Below, piece after piece: positions 34,712-48,043 of a stretch of DNA of 64,000 bases; positions within the stretch are counted from its first letter, which is position 1; each line of letters starts with the position of its first letter. The stretch is from the NCBI GenBank assembly GCA_019347945.1, contig JAHWKK010000014.1, positions 1 to 64,000 on the forward strand. Direction: 5' to 3'. The translations under genes and the position numbers were made by a program. Origin of the DNA: Acidobacteriota bacterium. GTDB lineage: Bacteria > Acidobacteriota > Thermoanaerobaculia > Gp7-AA8 > JAHWKK01. The notes under the pieces were generated by a model. That model worked only from the letters and a program-made list of their open reading frames with translations, did no database searches and was not told where the DNA came from.

Positions 34712-35653
34712 TCAGAAGTGCAGCGTGAGCCCGACCAGCAGCATCGACGTATCGAAGTCGCGTCCCTCCAGATTCGAGTCGACGTCCTCGAACGATCCGT
34801 AGAGATTCAGCGTCAGGTAATCGAGCAATTCGTAATCGGCGTAGCCGGAAAGCTGCTGGCGATCGTCCGAGCGGCCAAAGTTCGAGCTCGCTGTGGCGCT
34901 CGTCGAATAGTCCCGTTCCCGCAATCGGAGGCGAACGCTCGCGTAGAGACGGGGAGAGACGGCTGAACGGATCTGAAGGTATACCTCGCTCTGGTCATAC
35001 GAGAGGGTCGGATCATCCACGTCGCGTTCACCGGCAGCGAAACCGATCTCGGGCGAGAACTGCCGCCAGCCGCGGTACCGTACGGCACCCATGATCTCGC
35101 TGTAGTCATTGTCTCGGACGGGAGTCAGATCGAATTCCTGGTTCTGGAGCTCTCCGCCCGCCTTCAGCTCCCAGTCGCGCGTCACGCGGTAGCCGTATTG
35201 CCCGCTGAACGTTCGGACGTCCGCCCGGTCGAATACATCCCCGACGTCGAAAGTGGGACGGTCCATCTGCTGATCGAAATAGACGTCGAAAGCGTGTGGC
35301 CGGCCATCGCCGCGAGCTCCAATCCGGAAACCATCCGCCGAGTCGAGCAGGTCGTCGTTGTACTGGACCGTGTTGGCGCTCGCATATGCCCGCACCGGCA
35401 GGCTGCGACTCAGTCGATAGGACGCGCCGGCCTCGCCGTAGAACGCGTGGACGTCTTCCTCTGCTCGTCCTTCCGTGGCCTGGAAGAAATTCTGGAAAAA
35501 CAGTCCTTGCCCCTTGACCCACGCCTGGAGACGCTGCTCTGCAGGCGGCGGTGGCTGTACTTCTTTCGGATCGTCGACTCTCTCCTGCGCTGCAAGCGGA
35601 ACCGACAACGACAGCGTCAGCAATCCCGCCAGGCGGGTTCTTCCGTTTGTCAT
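34712..35653 (-). CDS. outer-membrane beta-barrel protein
   Basis: A 313-residue protein with a signal peptide (RLAGLLTLSLSVPLAAQ), a proline-rich spacer, and about a dozen amphipathic strands ending in the aromatic terminus LVGLTLHF, as expected for Bam-inserted barrels. I cannot place it in a named family. The ATG at 35653 has GGAGGG upstream. It follows the membrane GT2 gene by 24 bases and is the last gene of the exopolysaccharide operon, so a role as secretion or surface-anchoring porin for the polymer is possible. Confidence 0.78.
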   Translation of the reverse strand: MTNGRTRLAGLLTLSLSVPLAAQERVDDPKEVQPPPPAEQRLQAWVKGQGLFFQNFFQATEGRAEEDVHAFYGEAGASYRLSRSLPVRAYASANTVQYNDDLLDSADGFRIGARGDGRPHAFDVYFDQQMDRPTFDVGDVFDRADVRTFSGQYGYRVTRDWELKAGGELQNQEFDLTPVRDNDYSEIMGAVRYRGWRQFSPEIGFAAGERDVDDPTLSYDQSEVYLQIRSAVSPRLYASVRLRLRERDYSTSATASSNFGRSDDRQQLSGYADYELLDYLTLNLYGSFEDVDSNLEGRDFDTSMLLVGLTLHF

Positions 35654-35677
35654 GAGCCCTCCGGATTCAGACATCGT

Positions 35678-36832
35678 TCAGGTGCCTCGTGGCGACCATT
35701 CTCGCACGCGTCTCCCTCTTGCGATCGAAAGGACGCCGAGAAACGCCGCTGCATTCACGAGACAGAAGTAATAAGGAATCGAGAAAACCTTCCATTCTCC
35801 ACCTCGAGTCTTCCTGAGAAGCGCACCCGCAATTGCGAGCCCATAGAAGGTGATCTGGAACAGCAACAGGACCAGAAACCAGGGACCCGCGATCGACAAC
35901 ATCGCGGTGGAAAGCAATAGAAGCACCAGAAAGAATGGTACGAAGTGACGAATCAGCTTGTGTGAGAGCAGCTCCACCGAGTAGAAGCCCGACGTCCAGA
36001 GCGCGCTCCCGAGCTTCAGCAGAGCCAGGACGCTGTGATTGGTCACCCGGATTTTGCGGCGAAATTCATTACTACCCTCGGCGGGTGCCTCCTCCAATGC
36101 CACCGCCTCGGGATCGAAGATGAGCCGGAAGCCCTGCAGAACGACTCGCGTGGAGATGGCGATGTCGTCCGCCTGGGCCGGATCGGCAATCGGTACGTAG
36201 AGGCTTTTCCTGACGGCATAAAGACTGCCGTCGGCCGCAAACATGCTTCCGATCGTGCTCTCCAGCTCCTTCTGCCACTGATCCCAGCGCCAGTAGAGAT
36301 TTTCTCCCTGCTCGGTCGTGTCTGTCCCCGACCGGACGATGTATTTCTTCTTTCCCGAAACGCCTCCGACCGCATCGTCCGCAAACGCTCGCACGAGCAA
36401 CCTCACCGCATCGGGACGCAGCTCGACATTGGCGTCGGTGAAGATGATAATTTCGCTCTCTGCTGCCGCGACACCGCTGTTCAGGGCACCCGCCTTCCCG
36501 CTTCGAGGAAGCGAAAGAAGTCGGACACCATTCTGATCATGACGACGGATGATCTCCTCGGTCGAATCCGTCGAGCCGTCCGAGACGAACAGCACTTCGA
36601 GGCGATCCCGTGGATAGTCCAGATCGTGGCAGTTCCGAATCTTCCGCTCGACCACATTCTCTTCGTTGAATACCGGAATGATGATCGTCACCGACGGAGT
36701 GACGTCAACACGCGACACCGGATGTGGTCGCAGCCGTGCCATCAGAAAGATCAACAGGGGATAGCCGGCGTACACGTAGGCGACGACCAGGGCCGATCCG
36801 AAAAAGAGCGTCAGCAGAACGATCTCGATCAC
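35678..36832 (-). CDS. membrane-anchored family 2 glycosyltransferase
   Basis: A 384-residue polytopic GT2. An N-terminal helix (VLLTLFFGSALVVAYVYAGY) precedes the catalytic domain: VTIIIPVFNEENVVERKIRN, VLFVSDGSTDSTEE, EIIIFTDANVELRPD and the acidic PAQADDIAISTRVVLQGFRL. Three to four helices close the C-terminus. The usual QxxRW of processive synthases is replaced by FRRKIRVTNHS, as in several EPS transferases. Its GTG start overlaps the preceding stop by GTGA. It likely adds sugars to a polyprenyl-linked intermediate. Confidence 0.88.
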   Translation of the reverse strand: MIEIVLLTLFFGSALVVAYVYAGYPLLIFLMARLRPHPVSRVDVTPSVTIIIPVFNEENVVERKIRNCHDLDYPRDRLEVLFVSDGSTDSTEEIIRRHDQNGVRLLSLPRSGKAGALNSGVAAAESEIIIFTDANVELRPDAVRLLVRAFADDAVGGVSGKKKYIVRSGTDTTEQGENLYWRWDQWQKELESTIGSMFAADGSLYAVRKSLYVPIADPAQADDIAISTRVVLQGFRLIFDPEAVALEEAPAEGSNEFRRKIRVTNHSVLALLKLGSALWTSGFYSVELLSHKLIRHFVPFFLVLLLLSTAMLSIAGPWFLVLLLFQITFYGLAIAGALLRKTRGGEWKVFSIPYYFCLVNAAAFLGVLSIARGRRVREWSPRGT

Positions 36833-38058
36833 GATCGTCTCCGCTCCATCAGGTCTTCGTAAGTCTGGAGGATCGTTCGTGCCACGTTCGACCAGGAAAA
36901 CCGTTCTTTCGCTTCCTTTCGCGCTGCCGAGCCGAGCCTTCGCGCCAGATCGTCGTCATTGAGCAGAGCCGTGATCGCGTCCGACAAGGAATCCGGCTCG
37001 TCCGGTTCTACCAGAAGGCCGGTTTCCCCGTCCCGGATGACCTCGGGCATAGCACCGACGCGTGTCGCCACGATCGGCACGCCGAACGTCTGAGCGAGTT
37101 GCAGCGCACCGCTCTGATAGATGGAGCGATAGGGGAAGACCGCAACGTCCGCCAGGTCCATCCATGCTCGAACATCCTCGGACGCGACGTACCGCGCGAC
37201 GACTCGAAGATGCTCTTTCAATCCGCGCCGGTTTGCCTCTTCGAGGTAGGCATCGGTATCGAAACTCGCCGTCGGATAACCCGCGAGAACGAGGATCGCA
37301 CCCTCCGTTCGAGCCTTCACCTTCGCGAATGCCTCGAGGAGAAGGTCGAGTCCTTTGTATAGAGAAAGAGTGCCGAAGAAGAGGACGACGCGCTGCGTGG
37401 GGTGGAGTGCGAGCTCTTCCCGAAGGCGTTCCGGGGTCGACTCGGGGGAGGCCAGGTCGTGAAAAATCCGTTCATTGCCATGAACGATTCGTACGACGCT
37501 CTCGGCGCTCGCGGGAAACGTGCGGGAAAACTCGTCGGCGTTGACGTCATAGTGAACGAAGATCGCGTCGAACTGCCGATACGTTCTGGAGTAGAACGAC
37601 CGCTCGAAACGGGAGATCTCGAACGTTCCGGTCGAGCCGGCGCCTCCGGAGAAGGGATTGATATTGTGGCAGATGTCCGCGAGCAACGGCGCCTGCCTCC
37701 GGAGCATCCGGACCGGCAGGAGATCCATTGCGAACCGGATGTCGCCGAGCTGAACGACGTCGGGGCGAAGGCGGCGGATGATGAGAAAGATCCGCAGCCA
37801 CTCCCGATAATGGATCACCGCACGAACGACACGCCGGAGACGACGGACTAGCAGTGAGTGGCGTTCCCGAGCGGGTTTCGGATCCCACAGATGGAGAGAT
37901 CGCTTCAGGGTGAACGGGTGCTCGAGGGCTTCGAGCTCGTAGTGGCGATCCGTGAGGAGGGTGACCGATGCGCCCAGCTCGTGCATCGCCCGGCAGAGCT
38001 GCCAGGAGTAATGAATCATCCCCCCTTTCCCAGCAGGCTCGATCACCACGATTTTCAT
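36829..38058 (-). CDS. family 4 glycosyltransferase
   Basis: A 409-residue GT-B transferase. The N-terminal domain starts MKIVVIEPAGKGGMIHYSWQ; the C-terminal domain has VVLFFGTLSLYKGLDLLLEA and the nucleotide-sugar region VFPYRSIYQSGALQLAQTFG with GAMPEVIRDGETGLLVEPDE. The first Glu of the usual E-x7-E motif is replaced by Ser/Tyr in YQSGALQLA. The start overlaps the previous gene's stop by ATGA. Confidence 0.9.
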   Translation of the reverse strand: MKIVVIEPAGKGGMIHYSWQLCRAMHELGASVTLLTDRHYELEALEHPFTLKRSLHLWDPKPARERHSLLVRRLRRVVRAVIHYREWLRIFLIIRRLRPDVVQLGDIRFAMDLLPVRMLRRQAPLLADICHNINPFSGGAGSTGTFEISRFERSFYSRTYRQFDAIFVHYDVNADEFSRTFPASAESVVRIVHGNERIFHDLASPESTPERLREELALHPTQRVVLFFGTLSLYKGLDLLLEAFAKVKARTEGAILVLAGYPTASFDTDAYLEEANRRGLKEHLRVVARYVASEDVRAWMDLADVAVFPYRSIYQSGALQLAQTFGVPIVATRVGAMPEVIRDGETGLLVEPDEPDSLSDAITALLNDDDLARRLGSAARKEAKERFSWSNVARTILQTYEDLMERRRS

Positions 38059-39257
38059 CGATCTCCCTCGTGCCTTCCGCTCGATTCACGAAGAACGGCG
38101 GAGTAGAGGTTCTCGAGTCGATTGAACCACGCATCGATTGAAAAATCCCGTTCGACTTTCGTACGGGCAGCCTCTGCGGTCCGGTCTCTCCATGATGAGT
38201 CCCCGAGAGCTCGGTCGATTGCGTCAGCGAGAGCTTTCTCATCGCCCGGAGGTACGAGCAGTCCGGTCCGTTCATCCTCGACGATCTCCGGGACCCCACC
38301 GACCTCACTCGCGATGACGGGCACACCGGCAGCGAAGGCTTCGAGGAGAACCGTCGGAAACGCGTCCCGTAGTGTCGGCAGAACGAAAAGATCCGCTTCG
38401 GCGAGAATTGCGGCGACATCGCGGCGGAACCCCGTCCAGCGGACCGATCGGCTAATCCCCAGATCGTTTGCCATTCTCTTCCACTCGTCGGACATCGGAC
38501 CGTCTCCGACGACGACCAGAATGCAATCGCCTCGTCGATCGAGCACCTCTCGTGCCGCGCGAAGCAGAGTGTCGATCCCCTTGTCGCGGCGCAGCACCGC
38601 CACGGTCGCGATCACCGAGGCCTGGCTCCCGATTCCGAGCTCCTGCCGGATCGAACCGTCAGTTTCCATGGGGCCCGGCTCGAGATCGATGCCGTTGTGA
38701 ACGATGGCGATTTTCGAGCCGTCGAGCGACGTGCTCCTCTCCCATTCGTGGCCGAGGGCATGGGAAACGACGACAACTCTGGCGGAGAACCGGTTGAGGA
38801 GGAAGACCATCAGACGCTGCCGAATGGATTCGCGGAGTCCGCCGGCGTGGGAGGGTGGGATGTGCAGCGAGGCGACGAAAGGGACGCGATGGCGCCGAGC
38901 GATGAGCGATCCCCAGATCGCGGCATAGGCGAGATGCGCATGAATGAGCTCCGGCCGGAGATTGCGGACGAGGCGCGACAGACGTCGCATCGCCCCTGCG
39001 TCGCGGAGGTTCCGCGCGTCGAGATTCACGACGTTGACCGACGCCGAGCGCAGCTCCTGCTCGAGCGGATTCCCGCCGATCGTCGTACGCGCACAGATCG
39101 TGAGCTCGACTGCCCGTTTCCGGGCAGCTCTCGCGAATGGAAGGACGAGGGCCTCCGCTCCTCCCATCGTCAGCGAATCGATCAGCCAGAGAAGACGGTA
39201 CGGACCGCCGCGCGGAACCGCGCCTGCATCGCCGTCCATGGCATTTGGCTGCGCCAT
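38055..39257 (-). CDS. family 4 glycosyltransferase
   Basis: A 400-residue GT-B transferase: LLWLIDSLTMGGAEALVLPF is the typical GT4 N-terminus, followed by LIHAHLAYAAIWGSLIARR, IAIVHNGIDLEPG, ATVAVLRRDKGIDTLL and LFVLPTLRDAFPTVLLEAFA with VGGVPEIVEDERTGLLVPPG. The ATG at 39257 with AGGAGG lies 76 bases inside the phosphotransferase gene, a larger overlap than at other junctions here. It is coupled downstream by ATGA. Confidence 0.9.
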   Translation of the reverse strand: MAQPNAMDGDAGAVPRGGPYRLLWLIDSLTMGGAEALVLPFARAARKRAVELTICARTTIGGNPLEQELRSASVNVVNLDARNLRDAGAMRRLSRLVRNLRPELIHAHLAYAAIWGSLIARRHRVPFVASLHIPPSHAGGLRESIRQRLMVFLLNRFSARVVVVSHALGHEWERSTSLDGSKIAIVHNGIDLEPGPMETDGSIRQELGIGSQASVIATVAVLRRDKGIDTLLRAAREVLDRRGDCILVVVGDGPMSDEWKRMANDLGISRSVRWTGFRRDVAAILAEADLFVLPTLRDAFPTVLLEAFAAGVPVIASEVGGVPEIVEDERTGLLVPPGDEKALADAIDRALGDSSWRDRTAEAARTKVERDFSIDAWFNRLENLYSAVLRESSGRHEGDR

Positions 39258-40279
39258 CCGTGCTCCTCCTTTCCGGCATCTTTCTCTCCCCCCGCGAGAA
39301 ATGCCTCGAACATCGGCCGAAGCAGTGCGCGGTCGATACCCGCCTCTCGGATGTACGCCTCCAGATACGTTCCGACCACCGACGAAGCCCTCGAGTCGCG
39401 AGCAAACGCATTCTCGAATCGATCCAGCGGGTTTTCCGGGAACCATGAGGGGGCGTTCATCGCGAAGAGCAGCGGCAGCGTGAAGAGATCGTGCCAGAGG
39501 GGACCGCTGAGCGAGGCCCGCTCCCAGTCGACGACCCCGGAGAGCTCGCCGTCATTGCCAAAAAGAAGGTTTCTGGCCCAGAGATCACCGTGAACGACGA
39601 CCCCCCGCTCGGTGGGCGGTTTCTCGAGCGCCATCGCCTCTTCCGTCGCATCCGAAAGGGTTCCTCGAGATGTTCCGACCGTCTCGCGGTGCAACCGACC
39701 GAGCCACGCTCCAGCTCGGACCAGATGTTTCCGATGCGACCGCAACGGCCGCAGGGATCGTTGCATGGAGATCCAGAGAGGCTGGCCTTCGAGCGGGGAG
39801 AGTACCAGGATCTCGTGCTCGCCCGATTCGCCGTACTCGACCACTCGAGGAATCTTCGACGCGACAGCATCGTCCGAGCTCTGCAGCCGCCCGAGCACGC
39901 GTGCTTCGTTGGCGAGAGGAACGCCAGCGGAGGAGCGCTTCCGGAGCTTCACGACGCTCGACAGACGACCATCCCGGAATGTGAAAATCGTGCTCCGGGC
40001 ACGTTCACCTCCCTCGTAGTCGCGCAGAAGAAGCCATTCCGTATCCTCAGGGGGAAGCGTTGCATCGGCGAGATCCGGAATGTCCGACTCGTCTGCGATC
40101 AGCGAGAGCGGCGAAGAATGAGCGATCTCCCTCGACTCTCCCTTCAGCGTGATGTTGCCCCCGATCGCCGCAAGACGACGTCCGCGAGAGTGAATCGACG
40201 TCAGATTTCGCTTCGCGAACTCCCTCGCAGCTTTCGCATCGGCGGGGAAGACTATCCGTCCGGTCTCCACGACTCTCAT
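39182..40279 (-). CDS. APH-fold phosphotransferase in the exopolysaccharide operon
   Basis: A 365-residue protein whose residues ~100-330 form an aminoglycoside/choline-kinase-like domain: SVVKLRKRSSAG (probable ATP-binding Lys111), ANEARVLGRL (Glu126), VVVHGDLWARNLLFG (catalytic loop, His230-Asp232) and GVVDWERASLSGPLWHDLF (metal Asp251). About 90 residues at the N-terminus (VVETGRIVFPADAKAAREFA) are unassigned. The ATG at 40279 forms ATGA with the flippase stop; longer frames are antisense-like sequence. Antibiotic resistance is unlikely in this setting; phosphorylation of a sugar, lipid carrier or polymer end fits better. Confidence 0.85.
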   Translation of the reverse strand: MRVVETGRIVFPADAKAAREFAKRNLTSIHSRGRRLAAIGGNITLKGESREIAHSSPLSLIADESDIPDLADATLPPEDTEWLLLRDYEGGERARSTIFTFRDGRLSSVVKLRKRSSAGVPLANEARVLGRLQSSDDAVASKIPRVVEYGESGEHEILVLSPLEGQPLWISMQRSLRPLRSHRKHLVRAGAWLGRLHRETVGTSRGTLSDATEEAMALEKPPTERGVVVHGDLWARNLLFGNDGELSGVVDWERASLSGPLWHDLFTLPLLFAMNAPSWFPENPLDRFENAFARDSRASSVVGTYLEAYIREAGIDRALLRPMFEAFLAGGEKDAGKEEHGWRSQMPWTAMQARFRAAVRTVFSG

Positions 40280-41751
40280 CCCTGCTCCCCTTCGCGGACA
40301 TCGGTCTCCGTTGATCGGTTTCGCTTCAGCGGAAGCGCCGCGATCAGCTCGGTGAAGAGATATCTGTCGACGAGCCATGTGACGATCCCGTATGCCGCGC
40401 CGCACAGAACGATGAGCAGGAGGAGGGTGATGACCGGGCTCGGTTGCCCGATGAATCGAAGAAGCAGGAGGCCGGTGGAGACCAGCGCGAGACCGCCGGC
40501 AAGAGACGTTCGCAGCGATCGGAGCAGCTCCTCCCATCGGAACCCGAGCAGCCGCTTCACCACCACGAGGTTGAGCGTCGCGGTGCCTGCGGTTACCAGT
40601 GCCATGGTCATTGCGACTTCTTCGACTCCTGAAGAGCCCGCGAGAATCAGCGCAGGGAGCAGAATTGCGGCCTTGACGAGACCCAGAACCGCGAGCAAGC
40701 CTGACCGGCCCGTAGCCTTCAGGACGTCGCCCGCATGAGTTCCGAGCGATCGAAGTCCGGCGTAAATCGCGAGCCACTGCAGGAGCGGTACAGCGTCTGC
40801 CCACTTCGCACCAAAGAAGACCGTGACGAGAGGCCCGGCGGAGACGAATAGTCCGGCCGCCATCGGAACCGTCACGAACGACACGTAACGCAACGCTTTC
40901 AGATAGGCGTGACGCAGTCCTTCACCGGAGTGCTGCATTTTCGAAAACGCCGGGAAAAGCACCTTGCTCGCGACCCACAGAATCACGCTGACCGAAGCCT
41001 CGGGGATTTTGTAGGCGATCTGGTAGAGACCGAGGGCGCGGGCGCCGATCATCCGGCCCACGATCAGGAGGTCCGAGTGATGAACGACTGCCGCGATGAC
41101 ATTCACCCCGATGATTCCCCTCCCGTATCGCAGCATCGGGAGGAGAAGATCGCGAGGGAAGCCGAGCGTCGGCCGCCATGGAACGATCATCCACGCTCCG
41201 ATGGTCCACACGGTCAGCCCGGCGAGGTGTCCCCAGACGAGACTCCAGGCCCCCAGACCTGCAAACGCGAGGACGATCGAGATCACCGCTTTGGTCGACG
41301 TGAGGCCGAGCTCGGGAATCATGCGAGCCTTGAAACGAAGGTCTTTCTGGGCGAGAGCGTCGTGCGTATTGCCCGCGAACTTCACCAGAAAGGCCAGCGC
41401 GAGCACGCGAATGATCGCTTCCGCCTCCGGACTATTGAAAAAGTCGGCAATGAGAGGGGCGAGGGCGATCGTACCGCCACACCACAGCATTCCCATCACG
41501 ATGTTGATCACGAAGGTGACCTGCGCGGCGTCATCGCGCCGCTCCGGCCAGTAGATCAGCGCCACCGTGGTCCCGAGATCGCCGATGGTCTCGGCGTACG
41601 TGATGTAGACCAGCGCGAATGCGAGCAGCCCGAAGTCAGTCGGAGCGAGGAGTCTGGCGAGAACCGCGAGACTCAGCAGCGAGATGATCCTCGTGCCGGC
41701 AGTCGATGCAAACGCCCAGAGTGCCGCCCGGAGAGTGACGGCGGTTCTCAA
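40276..41751 (-). CDS. oligosaccharide flippase (Wzx/MOP superfamily)
   Basis: A 491-residue membrane protein with about 14 predicted helices, starting ALWAFASTAGTRIISLLSLA and carrying the WzxC/RfbX-type blocks LLAPTDFGLLAFALVYITYA and GARALGLYQIAYKIPEASVS. It would flip lipid-linked repeat units to the periplasm. The TTG at 41751 makes a TTGA overlap with the upstream stop and has GGGAG at good distance; the ATG at 41802 (17 residues longer) lacks a ribosome site. Confidence 0.9.
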   Translation of the reverse strand: MRTAVTLRAALWAFASTAGTRIISLLSLAVLARLLAPTDFGLLAFALVYITYAETIGDLGTTVALIYWPERRDDAAQVTFVINIVMGMLWCGGTIALAPLIADFFNSPEAEAIIRVLALAFLVKFAGNTHDALAQKDLRFKARMIPELGLTSTKAVISIVLAFAGLGAWSLVWGHLAGLTVWTIGAWMIVPWRPTLGFPRDLLLPMLRYGRGIIGVNVIAAVVHHSDLLIVGRMIGARALGLYQIAYKIPEASVSVILWVASKVLFPAFSKMQHSGEGLRHAYLKALRYVSFVTVPMAAGLFVSAGPLVTVFFGAKWADAVPLLQWLAIYAGLRSLGTHAGDVLKATGRSGLLAVLGLVKAAILLPALILAGSSGVEEVAMTMALVTAGTATLNLVVVKRLLGFRWEELLRSLRTSLAGGLALVSTGLLLLRFIGQPSPVITLLLLIVLCGAAYGIVTWLVDRYLFTELIAALPLKRNRSTETDVREGEQG

Positions 41752-43976
41752 CGCATCAGCTCCCTTCGAAGAAAGCTCATGCGAGCTCGCCTCTGCAGCC
41801 ATGAGAGTGCGGTGTCATCCTTGTCGAGCATCTGGAGGGCCGCGGTGATGCGTGAAAGCTCGAGCTCGCCCGGATCGATCGCATGCCGGTATCCCTCGAG
41901 AAATCGGCTTCGGGACATCTCGTACATCCGCGGTGCCCGAAACGCCAGATAGAGTCCGGTGTGCAGCAGGAACCAGACGACATCACGTGACGGGAGTGCA
42001 AACCCGTATCCCTCGAAATCGATGACTCGGACAGCATCCCCGGAAAAGAAGACGTTCCCTGGCCAGAAGTCTCCATGATGCGACACTGCGACTCGACCGG
42101 TTTTCGTGAGCTGCGTGTCGAGCGAATCGATTCGCTCCTCGAGCCTCCACTGCTGCCTCCTGGAAAGCGATCTTCTGCCGACCCGACCGAGCAGGTCGCG
42201 CGCTTCTCGTATCTGATGTTCCAGCGCTGCGTTTCCGTCAGCCGTCTCGAAAGTCTGAAAATGTGCGAGCCACCGGCCGACTGCTTCCATCTGCTTCCCG
42301 AGAGCATTGACCGCGCCGGGCTCGCGACGCCGGGCGCTTCTGATCGAGTCCTCGACCGTCTGTTCTCCGGCGCGCTCCATTGCGAGGGTCACCGAGGCAG
42401 CGTGGGATCCGATGACTTTCGGAACCCCGGGACGGAAGTCATCCTCTTGTATCGGTTCGAAGTGACGAGCGAGATCCTGAAGGACCCGCAGCTCGTGAAG
42501 AAATCGCGCTTCGGCGGGTCGCGATTCACCGGGACGAGTGACGTGGCGTTTCAGAATGATCTCCTCCACGCCCGAGCCGTCGCCTGCCATCGCCTCGAAG
42601 ACATGCGAATCGTGTCGGCCGAGCCCTCTCCGCAGTCCCCATGAGACGCTTCTTCCGACGTCCGGAACGGAACGGATCTCGTCGACGGGTGGATTGACGC
42701 TGTCGAGTTTCGGGATCAGTCTGCTCACGACGTCGCGGAGATCGAATTCGGCCACGACCTTCTCGCGCCCCTTTTCAGAAAGACGTCGACGTAGCTCGGG
42801 ATCAGCGATCAGCCGGCGTAAAGCGTTCGCGAGCTGCCGGGAGTTCGCGGGGTCGACGAGAAGGCCGCTCGTTTCATGTTCGACGAGCTCGGGGATCCCC
42901 GATATGGAGGTCGCGACGACGGGCTTACCCGCGGCCATCGCTTCCATCAGCGCGACCGGAATGCCCTCCATCTGTCCGTCAGCAGCAATGACGCTGGGTA
43001 GCACGAAAAGGTCGGCCTCACGAATCTTCTCGGTGACCTCGTGTTGGGGAAGGGCGCCGAGAAGAATGACCCGGTCGTCCAGTTCGCGCTGCTTCACCGC
43101 ATGAGCCATCTCGTTCATCAGCGGGCCGGTTCCGATGATCTCCAGCCGGAAATCGACATTCTCCGCCCGGAGGATGCCGGCAGCTTCGATCAGGAAACCG
43201 ACTCCCTTGTACGGCTTCATGGCCGCAATGCAGAGGATCCGTGGTTCCGCTCCCAGGCTTTGGGCCTTTGACTCGGCTCCGCGATAACGCTCCGGCTCGA
43301 TTCCCACATGGACCACGTGAATCTTTCCCGCGCTGGCCCTGGGGAAGAGGTTCTCCAGGAAAGTCTTGTTGAAGCGGGAGATCGACCGGATGAAGCTCGC
43401 TTTCCGGATCTTCTCCCGCAGAAGTGTTCTGTCGACGAAGATGTCGTGCGCATGAACCGTGAAGCTGAACGAGACGTCCGTCAACGTCGCGATGATGAAC
43501 GCCATGGTCGTCGGATGTGTTGCGAAATGAGCGTGAAGGTGGCGAATGTCGCGCCCCGTGACGAGGGAAGCGAGGTGAACCGACTTCGGAAAGAGGGCGA
43601 GCGACCGGAAGAGGACCCCCGGGCGAAAGAGCGCTTTCCCTGTCATCCAGAACAGGAGGCGGAACATCGGAGCCGGTTTGCGGATCCACGCTGCGAGGAA
43701 CGACCGGAGAACCTTCGATGAAATGAAAGGGACTCCGACCACGCGGTCCAGCCACCGTCGTGCTTCTTCGTGGACGACTTCCGGATGTTCGAGAATCATC
43801 GGAATGAGCACGACCGGTTGTCCCTGCCGTTCGAGCTCATCGATCTCTCGGAGAATGAATGTTTCGGTGATCAGAGGAAAACGCGAGAGGAGGACGCCCA
43901 CCGGTCGCCGGATGCGAGGCGTCCCGGTGTCGCACATCGATTTCTTCAGCGGAGCGTCCGCGGACTCCATCGTCAT
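41748..43976 (-). CDS. family 4 glycosyltransferase fused to an APH-fold kinase domain
   Basis: A 742-residue two-domain protein. Residues ~22-420 are a complete GT4: GVLLSRFPLITETFILREID, HLHAHFATHPTTMAFIIAT, FTVHAHDIFVDRTLL, RILCIAAMKPYKGVGFLIEA and the donor motif EGIPVALMEAMAAGKPVVAT (E337-x7-E345), then SGIPELVEHETSGLLVDPAN. Residues ~445-742 form an APH/choline-kinase-like domain with EEIILKRHV (candidate Lys477), VAVSHHGDFWPGNVFFSG (catalytic loop near 633-641) and VRVIDFEGYGFALPSRDVVW (metal Asp near 653). The ATG at 43976 overlaps the ligase stop by ATGA. One chain that both transfers a sugar and phosphorylates something is unusual; the kinase may modify the sugar just added. Confidence 0.88.
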   Translation of the reverse strand: MTMESADAPLKKSMCDTGTPRIRRPVGVLLSRFPLITETFILREIDELERQGQPVVLIPMILEHPEVVHEEARRWLDRVVGVPFISSKVLRSFLAAWIRKPAPMFRLLFWMTGKALFRPGVLFRSLALFPKSVHLASLVTGRDIRHLHAHFATHPTTMAFIIATLTDVSFSFTVHAHDIFVDRTLLREKIRKASFIRSISRFNKTFLENLFPRASAGKIHVVHVGIEPERYRGAESKAQSLGAEPRILCIAAMKPYKGVGFLIEAAGILRAENVDFRLEIIGTGPLMNEMAHAVKQRELDDRVILLGALPQHEVTEKIREADLFVLPSVIAADGQMEGIPVALMEAMAAGKPVVATSISGIPELVEHETSGLLVDPANSRQLANALRRLIADPELRRRLSEKGREKVVAEFDLRDVVSRLIPKLDSVNPPVDEIRSVPDVGRSVSWGLRRGLGRHDSHVFEAMAGDGSGVEEIILKRHVTRPGESRPAEARFLHELRVLQDLARHFEPIQEDDFRPGVPKVIGSHAASVTLAMERAGEQTVEDSIRSARRREPGAVNALGKQMEAVGRWLAHFQTFETADGNAALEHQIREARDLLGRVGRRSLSRRQQWRLEERIDSLDTQLTKTGRVAVSHHGDFWPGNVFFSGDAVRVIDFEGYGFALPSRDVVWFLLHTGLYLAFRAPRMYEMSRSRFLEGYRHAIDPGELELSRITAALQMLDKDDTALSWLQRRARMSFLRRELMR

Positions 43977-45442
43977 GCCTCGGCTCGACGACTCAGGCGC
44001 TGCAGCGTTGCAGCGAACGCCAGCAAGAGAAAGAAATAGCGGGGAAAAGCGAAGTGGAGAAATATCCCGGAGACGAGATAGCCGATCAGCGCGATTCGGA
44101 ACGCCATGGCCGCGGTCCTGAGCCGCGGATCGAGTCCAGGGCGCATCGCATCGCCTGAAGCGCCCCAGGCCGCAACCAGGATCGCGATGAGCATGACGAG
44201 TCCGACGAGTCCAGTCTCTGCCGCAACTTCGAGGTAAATGTTGTGCGGGTAGTAGAGATCCGGTTGATCCTCGTACTGTCTCGCTGCAGAGGCGGTCAGA
44301 TCGACATAGTCGTCGTACCGCGCGGTGTAGTTGGCCGCACCGACTCCCATGATCGGATTCGCACCGAACATGACCCACGCCACCCGCATGAAAAGCTTCC
44401 GTTCCTCGAATGAGCTGTCGAGGCGAAGCGGAGCGTCGCGACTCGGAAGAATCTGCTCGATCGTCAGGAAGCGTTTCGTCACGCTGTCCGGTAAGAAGAG
44501 GAGAGCTACTCCGAGCGCACTCAGGACGATCACAGTGGTGCGCCAGCGGATGTGAAGCACCTTCAGCATAATCAGGCCCATAGCGGCCACAGCTACCATC
44601 GCGCCCCGCGAATAGGTGAGCCCGATCGCGATCAGAATCACGACTGCACTCGAGAACCACATGAAGCGGGCAACCCGGCTGGAGGTTCTGGCGCCGAACA
44701 GGACGGCGATCGGAAGAACGAGGAGGAGGATCTGCGCGAAGAAGTTCGGATCACCGAGGGGTCCCGCGATCCGCGGCTGAAAAACGGAGCCGTAAATGTG
44801 AGCCTGCTTGATCCGCGCGAGGCCAGCGAACTCGTTCGAGAAGTCTCCGGTCAGCACCTGAATGATCGTCAGTATGCCCAGGAAAGTGGCGGCGCCGGCG
44901 AATGCAATCAGTCCCTGCATCATGCGATCACGATTTCGCATCAGAAGTGTCGCGAGGGCGAAGATGACGAACGATTTAGCGATCTCGACGAATCGTTCGT
45001 CCGCCAGCGCCTGATCGGTAGCGAGGCTGGTCGTGACCAGCAACAGGAGAAGGTAGGCGAGAAGACAGGTGGTGAGCGGCTGCCTCGCCACTTCCGATAC
45101 GTCATCGGTATCACGCTTCAGCCATGCGGCGAACACCAGCCCCACCACCAGAATCTGGAGAAGAGAAGGAAAGTCGTGAAATCGAACCAGAGTCTGCGAA
45201 AGGTTCAGATAGACGAATGCAACCAGAAGAGGGAGGCCGAGCGATGAAAAGCGAACGGCAAGCCCGCCGAACGCGACGGCGATCAGGATGAGCAACGGAT
45301 CTGCCCTTCCGATCGTCGAAGCCATCAGCTCCCGATTGCCGAGGATCGCAGCCGTCATCGCGAGCGCCGCCAGCGATCCGATGATCGCGACTGCCGCGCC
45401 CGTCAGTCGCTCTGTTCGATCCTGATGATCGAGCGCAGGCAC
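43973..45442 (-). CDS. O-antigen ligase / polymerase family membrane protein
   Basis: A 489-residue protein with about 12 helices. The large periplasmic loop contains FGANPIMGVGAANYTARYDD and DLYYPHNIYLEVAAETGLVG, the Wzy_C/WaaL signature with the conserved His. It serves as ligase or Wzy-type polymerase for the repeat unit; sequence alone does not separate these. Starts with GTG one base after the Wzz stop. Confidence 0.9.
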   Translation of the reverse strand: MPALDHQDRTERLTGAAVAIIGSLAALAMTAAILGNRELMASTIGRADPLLILIAVAFGGLAVRFSSLGLPLLVAFVYLNLSQTLVRFHDFPSLLQILVVGLVFAAWLKRDTDDVSEVARQPLTTCLLAYLLLLLVTTSLATDQALADERFVEIAKSFVIFALATLLMRNRDRMMQGLIAFAGAATFLGILTIIQVLTGDFSNEFAGLARIKQAHIYGSVFQPRIAGPLGDPNFFAQILLLVLPIAVLFGARTSSRVARFMWFSSAVVILIAIGLTYSRGAMVAVAAMGLIMLKVLHIRWRTTVIVLSALGVALLFLPDSVTKRFLTIEQILPSRDAPLRLDSSFEERKLFMRVAWVMFGANPIMGVGAANYTARYDDYVDLTASAARQYEDQPDLYYPHNIYLEVAAETGLVGLVMLIAILVAAWGASGDAMRPGLDPRLRTAAMAFRIALIGYLVSGIFLHFAFPRYFFLLLAFAATLQRLSRRAEA

Positions 45443-45443
45443 T

Positions 45444-46082
45444 TCAGGACTCTCCAGGAGTCCTTCCGGAGCCCTTCAGTCGATCGAGGGCCAGTGCCGC
45501 AGCGAGCCCGAGAACCAGCCCGAGGATTGCTCCGACGACCAGGTTCCGCTGAGGATCCGGGTAGCGGGGACTTCGCGGCACCGAGGCGGTCTCGAGAGAA
45601 TGAAGCGAGTAGATACGGTAGAGAGTGCCGGCTTCCCGCATGGTCAGCTCGGCTGCTCCGTTCGCCGCCGCCGCCGCGACCTCGGCGCTCGGTCCCTCGG
45701 CCGAGATTCGGATGATGTTGGTGTTGGGAACGACTGAACCATTGATCCTGACTCCTCGCAACTCCAGCCCGAGACTTTCGGCGAGCGCCTCGCGCGCCTC
45801 TCGTGTCGTCGAGATCCGGGCGAATGTCGCGATGACGGTTCGTCTTTCGAGCGTATCGAGACTCCGCACGATTTCGTCCGGTTCGGTCGTCTCCGGGCTC
45901 GGTGCAACGACGAGCATTGCCGAGGTTTCGTAAACCGGCTGCTGCCGCGAGGTGAACCAGACGGTTGCCCCGAGTGTGACCGCGATCAGGAGCAGGATGA
46001 GCCACCACCCGCGCCGGATGGCTCCGCGATAGTCGATCTCTCTTTTCAAAAGCGGCCTCCTCGTTTCCACGTCACTGTACAT
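45444..46082 (-). CDS. Wzz-type chain-length determinant protein
   Basis: A 212-residue PCP protein: N-terminal TM (GWWLILLLIAVTLGATVWFT), periplasmic domain with PVYETSAMLVVAPSPETTEP, and a second TM (LVVGAILGLVLGLAAALALD) preceded by the Pro-rich SVPRSPRYPDPQRN. It has no cytoplasmic tyrosine-kinase domain, so it is a PCP-1-like/short PCP-2 regulator; no separate BY-kinase or Wza exporter is found in the window. Confidence 0.88.
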   Translation of the reverse strand: MYSDVETRRPLLKREIDYRGAIRRGWWLILLLIAVTLGATVWFTSRQQPVYETSAMLVVAPSPETTEPDEIVRSLDTLERRTVIATFARISTTREAREALAESLGLELRGVRINGSVVPNTNIIRISAEGPSAEVAAAAANGAAELTMREAGTLYRIYSLHSLETASVPRSPRYPDPQRNLVVGAILGLVLGLAAALALDRLKGSGRTPGES

Positions 46083-46106: not shown

Positions 46107-46832
46107 CTAGGTCGCTCCTCGACCTGTCAGTACCACCCACAACGTGCGGAAGAGGATTCGGACGTCGAGCCAGAGGCTCCAGCGGTTCACGTACTCCCGG
46201 TCGAGTCTCATCCGCTCCTCCTCGGAAGTGAGGCTTCGGCCGCTCACCTGCCACAGACCCGTGATCCCCGGCTTTACCGAGAACCGGCGCATCTGCCCCC
46301 TCAGGGGAAATCTGCTCAGGTCCGACAGGAGGAGGGGGCGCGGCCCCACCAAGCTCATTGTTCCCTCGAGGACATTGAAAAGCTGGGGGAGCTCGTCGAG
46401 GCTGGTCCGCCGCAACAGCCGGCCGATCGGAGTGATGCGCGGGTCTGATTCCATCTTGAAGAACTGGGAATCGCGCTCGGATTCCAGTTCGGCCTGCATC
46501 GCTTCGGCACCGACGACCATTGTCCGGAACTTGTACATATCGAACTCGATGCAGCGGAAACCGATCCGTCGCTGTCGAAATACGACGGGGCCTTCAGACG
46601 TAAGCCGGATCAGAAGAGCCAGGATGATGAAAAGCGGCGCGGAAAAAACGATCAGGATTACGGAAGCGATGATGTCGATCAGCCTCTTGGCGTGCGCGCC
46701 CCATGGCCGCCGCGCTCTCAGATCGTGCCAGTAAACGCCGTAACTGGTTTCATCCCCCTCGTCCAGAGGTTCGCTCTCGTTTCCGATTGTACGGATCCCG
46801 AGGGGTCGCTCCTCTTTCGATTTGTCGGTCAT
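46107..46832 (-). CDS. initiating sugar transferase (polyprenyl-phosphate glycosyl-1-phosphate transferase)
   Basis: A 241-residue monotopic phosphoglycosyl transferase that starts repeat-unit synthesis on undecaprenyl phosphate. KRLIDIIASVILIVFSAPLF is the re-entrant membrane helix, EGPVVFRQRRIGF, MYKFRTMVVGAEAM, DPRITPIGRLLRRTSLDELP (catalytic Asp-Glu pair) and GTMSLVGPRPLL complete the family core, and KPGITGLWQVSGRS the C-terminus. It has the short, PglC-like single-helix architecture plus a ~45-residue N-terminal extension. The ATG at 46832 is chosen; upstream frame lacks homology. It is the first gene of the operon. Confidence 0.92.
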   Translation of the reverse strand: MTDKSKEERPLGIRTIGNESEPLDEGDETSYGVYWHDLRARRPWGAHAKRLIDIIASVILIVFSAPLFIILALLIRLTSEGPVVFRQRRIGFRCIEFDMYKFRTMVVGAEAMQAELESERDSQFFKMESDPRITPIGRLLRRTSLDELPQLFNVLEGTMSLVGPRPLLLSDLSRFPLRGQMRRFSVKPGITGLWQVSGRSLTSEEERMRLDREYVNRWSLWLDVRILFRTLWVVLTGRGAT

Positions 46833-46981
46833 GGACACTCGAGTCGTAGACAATCCCGGTGCGACGCAGCCACTGCGCCCCGGGCAAACAGAGTCAGTCC
46901 AGCAATCGCCGTGCAAGGCTCTCGCGCCGTCTCTCTGCGCAGATCGTCCCGAGGTCGGTTTCTTGCAGCCGGAAAAGCTAC

Positions 46982-48043
46982 ATGGCGCCACGCGAGGAAG
47001 TAGCTCGGAACAACGACGCTGACCTCAGCGTCATCATCGTAAGCTATCGAAGCGCGGACGATCTCGAGAACTGTCTCGCATCGCTCCGATACGTGCTCGA
47101 CTCGGACCGGCCATTCGCGGAGATCATCGTCGTCGACAACGGTTCCGGTACGGGGCGAACGGCCGCACTCGCCGCAAAGTACCCTGAGGTCCGATTCATC
47201 GAGAACTCCGGCAACCATGGTTACGCTCACGCGTGCAACGTCGGCGCGCGTGTCGCGCGTGGAAGCGAGCTTCTGTTTCTCAATCCCGACATTCTGGACC
47301 CGGGGGATTCGGTTCACCGAATCGTCGCCATCAAGCGCTCCGAGCCCGGGCTCTCGATTCTCACCGTGCGCCAGATCGACCGGCGTGGGCGACCTCAAAG
47401 GGTCTTCGGCCGGTTTCCGACGGTTCTCACAATTCTCAGTCCCATCCGGTTCCTTCTGCGGCTATTGCGGCCGGCAGCGTTCCCCGATCCGCGGCGGACG
47501 AGCGCACGCCGGCTCATCGTCGACTGGGTCTCGGGATCGGCTCTCATGATCTCGCGCAGCGATCTCGAGCAGCTCGGGGGCTGGTGCGAGGATTACTGGA
47601 TGTACTCCGAGGATGTCGACCTCTGCCGCCGGGCCAGAAGTCACGGATTGGTCGTCGCCTACTCCGGGGAGGTCGTGCTCGAGCACCGGCACGGTGGATC
47701 GAGCCGTCTGGACCGCGACATTTCGGCGCTGGCGCGATCCGAGGTCGTGATCTCGAAACACCTCTACGCGCATCGTCATCTGAACGGCCTCCACGCTGCG
47801 ATCTATCACGCCATCCTCTTTCTTTCGCGGTTCCCTCCGCTCGTGCTTGCCACACTGCTCGCGCGGATCTGGCCTGACGCTCCGGATGCTGTGGCGGTGA
47901 GAGCCGCGATGTACAAGCACCTCGAGAACCATTACCGAAGAGTGATCAGTGACCGAAACTGGATCAGCCCCCGTTCGGTCAACTTCCGCTCCGGCGGCGA
48001 ACAGGGCTCGGACCGGCCATTCCAGCGATCAGGAGCAGGATAA
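46982..48043 (+). CDS. family 2 glycosyltransferase (rhamnosyltransferase-like)
   Basis: A 353-residue GT2: LSVIIVSYRSADDLENCLAS, EIIVVDNGSGTGRTAALAAK, ENSGNHGYAHACNVGARVAR, ELLFLNPDILDPG and WVSGSALMISRSDLEQLGGW with EDYWMYSEDVDLCRRARSHG, the pattern of rhamnosyl/N-acetylglucosaminyl EPS transferases. The ATG at 46982 is used; the upstream frame is not conserved. It is divergent from the initiating sugar transferase across 149 bp and completes the exopolysaccharide locus. Confidence 0.9.
   Translation: MAPREEVARNNDADLSVIIVSYRSADDLENCLASLRYVLDSDRPFAEIIVVDNGSGTGRTAALAAKYPEVRFIENSGNHGYAHACNVGARVARGSELLFLNPDILDPGDSVHRIVAIKRSEPGLSILTVRQIDRRGRPQRVFGRFPTVLTILSPIRFLLRLLRPAAFPDPRRTSARRLIVDWVSGSALMISRSDLEQLGGWCEDYWMYSEDVDLCRRARSHGLVVAYSGEVVLEHRHGGSSRLDRDISALARSEVVISKHLYAHRHLNGLHAAIYHAILFLSRFPPLVLATLLARIWPDAPDAVAVRAAMYKHLENHYRRVISDRNWISPRSVNFRSGGEQGSDRPFQRSGAG

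Follow-up and report, generated by a model that had tools for sequence, protein, structure and literature searches.

WbdD of E. coli O9a, a eukaryotic-type kinase fused to a methyltransferase, phosphorylates the terminal mannose of a polyprenol-linked polysaccharide and, within an ABC-transporter pathway, terminates the chain (PMC3482155). ORF6 of Klebsiella pneumoniae O7 has the same role of chain terminator, again in a pathway that uses an ABC transporter; its single polypeptide comprises a methyltransferase, a kinase, a coiled coil and a pair of GT2 modules (PMC11231755). Its kinase phosphorylates an O-polysaccharide sugar, with an activity demonstrated in vitro that the D441A substitution abolishes, and has the APH-type amicoumacin kinase AmiN as its closest fold match, albeit it is not recognisable by sequence (PMC11231755). 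EpsE is one of the five glycosyltransferases of the M. xanthus EPS pathway, which is Wzx/Wzy-dependent (PMC7484181).

The DNA analysed here (the window) is a 64,000-nucleotide stretch of an Acidobacteriota genome, for which the original prediction proposed a glycosyltransferase fused to a kinase-fold domain in an exopolysaccharide operon. The Acidobacteriota are abundant in soil, and their exopolysaccharides have received little characterisation.

Genomic context

Judged by its gene content, the operon is a polysaccharide locus of the Wzx/Wzy type: the initiating transferase, Wzx, Wzy and Wzz are all encoded in it on the minus strand. It begins with an initiating polyprenyl glycosylphosphotransferase (46107..46833; PF02397, E 3.4e-67; start inferred, the frame being open to 46991), followed by a Wzz-like chain-length protein (45444..46082; PF02706, E 9.8e-7), a Wzy_C/O-antigen-ligase-type polymerase (43973..45442; PF04932, E 7.2e-25), the GT4-APH fusion, a Wzx-type flippase (40276..41802; PF13440, E 3.3e-76), a free-standing APH-fold kinase, two GT4 glycosyltransferases (38055..39263; PF00534, E 1.5e-42; start inferred, frame open to 39446; and 36829..38058; PF00534, E 2.8e-29), a GT2 glycosyltransferase (35678..36832; PF00535, E 6.7e-26) and an EpsL-like outer-membrane beta-barrel (34712..35674; PF10082, E 1.2e-6; TIGR03014 below cut-off). 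Nearly all of these genes overlap or abut, with overlaps of 4–82 bases, in agreement with the predicted overlapping gene chain. Another GT2 glycosyltransferase adjoins the operon divergently on the plus strand (46859..48043; PF00535, E 1.7e-18). Neither an ABC exporter (by Pfam) nor a nucleotidyltransferase, LicC/LicD or an acyltransferase was found in the operon, the two kinases being the only tailoring enzymes seen there.

The genome of the window gave 37 matches to the APH model, four of them strong and two of these four located in the operon. About 30 weak matches in G000 (contigs 3, 4, 20 and others) fell in open frames of roughly 650–1,200 aa, as a genome rich in Ser/Thr protein kinases would be expected to give.

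The fusion gene and its product

The fusion gene lies exactly where it had been placed, at 41748..43976, on the minus strand (the strand had been left unstated), which is open for 742 aa, while the plus strand of the same interval has many stops. Its ATG at 43976 shares a 4-base overlap with the stop of the Wzy gene, and the 742 aa reading rests on translation, Pfam matches and full-length relatives without internal stops. The product consists of a GT4 glycosyltransferase domain (42747..43976, minus; about aa 1–410; PF00534/PF13692 and GT4 fold matches), a linker of about 35 residues, whose sequence and length vary among relatives (42645..42746, minus), and an APH-fold kinase domain (41751..42644, minus; aa 445–742; PF01636). 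The codon-position GC bias is even across all three parts. The Pfam model Glycos_transf_1 matched aa 242–405 (E 2.6e-38; 131.7 bits against a cut-off of 26.4) and APH matched aa 472–672 (E 9.5e-14; 52 bits against 23.2).

Both halves have the intact motifs that had been claimed for them: the donor motif E-x7-E of the GT4 half is EGIPVALME (five of the other eight copies have D-x7-E, with Asp for the first Glu), and the kinase half has HGD634-636 (HHGDFWPGN) and IDFE652-655 (VIDFEG), together with Lys476 (IILK), the helix-C Glu495 and Asn641. A methyltransferase domain had no Pfam match in the window fusion, and no hydrophobic membrane segment was evident in the kinase half. The nearest NCBIfam model of the GT half was EpsE (NF041876), with 211.2 bits against an equivalog cut-off of 400.

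Structure prediction gave an APH fold for the kinase domain (pLDDT 76, pTM 0.73, with low confidence in the metal-binding-loop stretch); the PDB matches listed were APH-fold kinases (best E 1.6e-7; TM by query about 0.43–0.62), including the soluble small-molecule kinases APH(3'), methylthioribose kinase and glucosamine kinase. The full-length model was of low confidence (pLDDT 63), the matches listed for it being confined to the GT half and to GT4 enzymes. By sequence, the solved proteins nearest to the kinase profile were antibiotic and tryptamine kinases with weak scores, amicoumacin kinase being a weak match to the fused-kinase profile (E 0.002), and no substrate-defined APH subfamily matched the fused kinase, the best NCBIfam hits being weak. 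An antibiotic resistance gene was rejected as the main reading, since the gene is operon-bound and no resistance model came near its cut-off.

Distribution of the fusion

Full-length fusions were found in nine copies in eight genomes, the window's included, belonging to four classes of Acidobacteriota. The eight further copies, in seven genomes, occupy the same operon position, a recurrence well above what chance would give, so the fusion is not a peculiarity of a single genome absent from its relatives, which the original prediction had regarded as refuting. The common gene order is initiating transferase, Wzz, Wzy and GT4-APH, usually followed by Wzx. Within the window's order the fusion occurred in 5 of 19 genomes (six copies); the relatives named there are metagenome-assembled genomes, one of them labelled Thermoanaerobaculia. 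The 149 genomes of the window's class yielded no additional full-length fusion, while a phylum sample of 396 genomes produced three more (G166, G492 and G393), all outside the class and with the gene order kept. Searching the classes of these three (162, 38 and 41 genomes, respectively) added only G509. When 84,980 named species genomes were scanned with two strict peptide patterns, four loci came back, all from Acidobacteriota; the patterns failed to pick up G166, G492 and G393, provided that the collection includes them, and the scan thus says little against other phyla. The plasmid search with the fusion matched 1,725 records, none over 80% of the query. The sporadic distribution combined with the conserved gene order suggests that the cluster may have spread by transfer as a whole.

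In G509 this operon position is taken by two genes, one for the GT4 and one for the kinase, which overlap by the 4 bases GTGA. In the trees each half grouped as sister to the fused protein of G492 (support 96/89 and 96/92), which looks as if the gene had split in G509 or a fusion had arisen separately in G492; a frameshift error in the G509 assembly is a possible source of the split as well. Whichever holds, the two functions belong together, and the split kinase keeps the Lys, the catalytic Asp, the Asn and DFE. A functional link between the GT4 and the kinase is likely from the recurrence of the fusion at one operon position and from this split version. The proposed physical coupling of the kinase to glycosyl transfer is thus found in eight genomes, with overlapping genes in a ninth. 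A missed stop or an assembly error as the source of the fusion was ruled out by the independent genomes, the split version and the even codon bias at the joint.

Conservation of the kinase domain

All but one of the nine fused domains retain the catalytic Lys, Glu, Asp and Asn and the metal-binding Asp. These eight intact domains are diverse (down to 24% identity to that of the window), all match PF01636 and share 22 invariant columns, which include the Lys, the helix-C Glu and the HGD, Asn and DFE residues. The ninth, in G008 (L042 12876-15119, minus), has HGS and VDLG in place of the catalytic motifs and Arg instead of the N-lobe Lys; the copy nevertheless retains its full length and reading frame, and is located in the same kind of operon. 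Its kinase half should be an inactive pseudokinase, which would make the kinase activity dispensable in some lineage. Loss of the ATP-site residues, which had been considered fatal to the prediction, is therefore confined to this relative and does not affect the window copy.

The second, free-standing kinase of the window (39182..40279, minus; 365 aa; PF01636, E 6e-17), correctly predicted as an APH-fold protein, has a conserved N-terminal extension and carries Lys, HGD and DWE. Its co-occurrence with the fusion is partial: it is present in six of the nine readable loci (window, G012 contig 168, G008, G492, G393 and G509, where an in-frame TAG interrupts it) and missing from those of G012 contig 32, G004 and G166, showing that the fusion is independent of the second kinase. 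The contig of G016 ends before the corresponding place and was left out of the nine. The readable copies keep the Lys, the catalytic Asp and DWE, while the His of HGD is replaced by Gln in G492 and G509. The free kinases formed their own clade apart from the fused domains in the kinase tree (support 100/100), which gives no support to the idea that the fused kinase arose from its free neighbour within these operons.

Related glycosyltransferases and other clusters

Four genomes of the sister family also have GT-only copies with about 50% identity to the GT half of the fusion, nested among the fusions in the tree (support 89/94). In members of a related, neighbouring GT4 clade the kinase is replaced by a C-terminal SAM methyltransferase (L086 6376-8613, L087 12594-15035 and L088 5429-7906). 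The long open frames in the GT relatives of G080, G081 and G083 were fusions with a methyltransferase, not with a kinase. Methylation and phosphorylation are both standard decorations of glycans, and the C-terminal slot of this GT group thus appears to hold decorating enzymes, which would have been taken up more than once.

APH-like proteins were also seen in other settings. A different Acidobacteriota polysaccharide cluster (L103 1484-11731; similar in L101 and L102) encodes GT4s, a heparinase II/III-like protein, APH kinases and an ABC exporter. G318 (L083 1-1440, also G318:C727) has tandem APH-like proteins, possibly several pseudokinases, with HGQ/HGR for HGD, adjoining an ABC exporter, while in G465 (L082 1-3630) a GT4 is followed by two successive, unfused APH-like kinases.

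Proposed function

APH-fold kinases act on many small-molecule substrates, and the acceptor is not readable from sequence. We consider, with a probability of about 0.5, that the fusion is a bifunctional enzyme which adds a sugar to a lipid-linked repeat unit and phosphorylates the glycan, as a tailoring step of a Wzx/Wzy pathway. The GT4 half would work on the cytoplasmic side, using a nucleotide sugar as donor and adding one sugar to the undecaprenyl-linked repeat unit, and the APH-fold half would then place a phosphate from ATP on a hydroxyl of the glycan, most simply of the sugar just added. The phosphorylated unit would be flipped by Wzx and polymerised by Wzy, and a Wzz-controlled pathway would be expected to give a phosphate per repeat unit, not per chain. 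For the free-standing APH kinase, phosphorylation of a different site or some related modification is the probable role.

The bifunctional tailoring enzyme is supported by the conserved operon place of the nine copies, the split version in G509, the invariant catalytic columns, the APH-fold model and the fact that no tailoring enzyme besides the two kinases was seen in the operon. The main argument for action on the glycan is the presence of decorating enzymes in the C-terminal slot of the GT group, and the precedents of WbdD and O7 ORF6, which phosphorylate O-polysaccharide sugars, point the same way. The proposal is weakened by the G008 pseudokinase, by the GT-only copies in four genomes and by the fact that the characterised fused glycan kinases are chain terminators of ABC pathways, not of Wzx/Wzy ones.

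Since the best fold matches include glucosamine kinase and methylthioribose kinase, the kinase might instead phosphorylate a free monosaccharide or small alcohol to supply the GT donor, either as a sugar-1-kinase like AmgK/NahK or as a choline/ethanolamine-like kinase. This is rather unlikely, however: a sugar-1-phosphate requires a nucleotidyltransferase before a GT4 can use it, and none is encoded in the operon; a direct kinase-GT fusion would skip that very step, and the choline route lacks LicC/LicD in the operon. The full-length, in-frame pseudokinase of G008 and the GT-only relatives would fit a kinase domain that is mainly structural or regulatory, binding ATP or the acceptor or controlling the GT with no need for phosphotransfer, but the retention of catalytic residues in eight of nine fused domains despite low identity, and in the split kinase of G509, makes this unlikely. 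Phosphorylation of the lipid carrier undecaprenol, supplying carrier to the pathway, was one of the two targets in the original prediction (sugar or lipid carrier) and would suit a GT expected to act on carrier-linked glycans; it is highly improbable for a kinase half with no evident membrane segment, whose fold matches are soluble small-molecule kinases, and a carrier kinase would hardly need fusion to one non-initiating GT. Among the phosphorylation targets, the repeat-unit glycan fits best.

Tentatively, these loci may represent an undescribed class of glycan tailoring, in which a chain of GT4 and APH kinase, often accompanied by a second APH kinase, would decorate Wzx/Wzy repeat units with phosphate, so that the polymer charge is set in the cytoplasm. 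If so, the gene order would be a signature predicting a phosphorylated polymer, and some APH-annotated genes of polysaccharide clusters, easily mistaken for antibiotic resistance genes, would be glycan kinases. The fused, split, pseudokinase and methyltransferase versions provide ready-made natural controls.

Comparison with known systems

The fused kinase has the fold and catalytic motifs in common with the PF01636 APH family (APH(3'), methylthioribose kinase, glucosamine kinase), while the EpsE family is the nearest model for the GT half only, and the window protein, being below its cut-off, is not a member. The claim that no characterised enzyme has this form holds narrowly, nothing direct on a GT4-APH enzyme having been found in the literature searched, but O7 ORF6 already joins a glycan kinase to GT modules. 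Like O7 ORF6, the window fusion combines a kinase and a glycosyltransferase in one chain; unlike it, the fusion has a GT4 instead of GT2 modules, no methyltransferase, and a Wzx/Wzy pathway. With WbdD it shares a kinase fused to a second enzyme, which is a methyltransferase in WbdD and a GT4 here. Membership of the chain terminators was ruled out by the Wzx/Wzy/Wzz operon, in line with the lack of a methyltransferase and an ABC exporter, while the mechanistic parallel was kept: by analogy, the window fusion would resemble WbdD and O7 ORF6 in coupling phosphorylation to polysaccharide synthesis.
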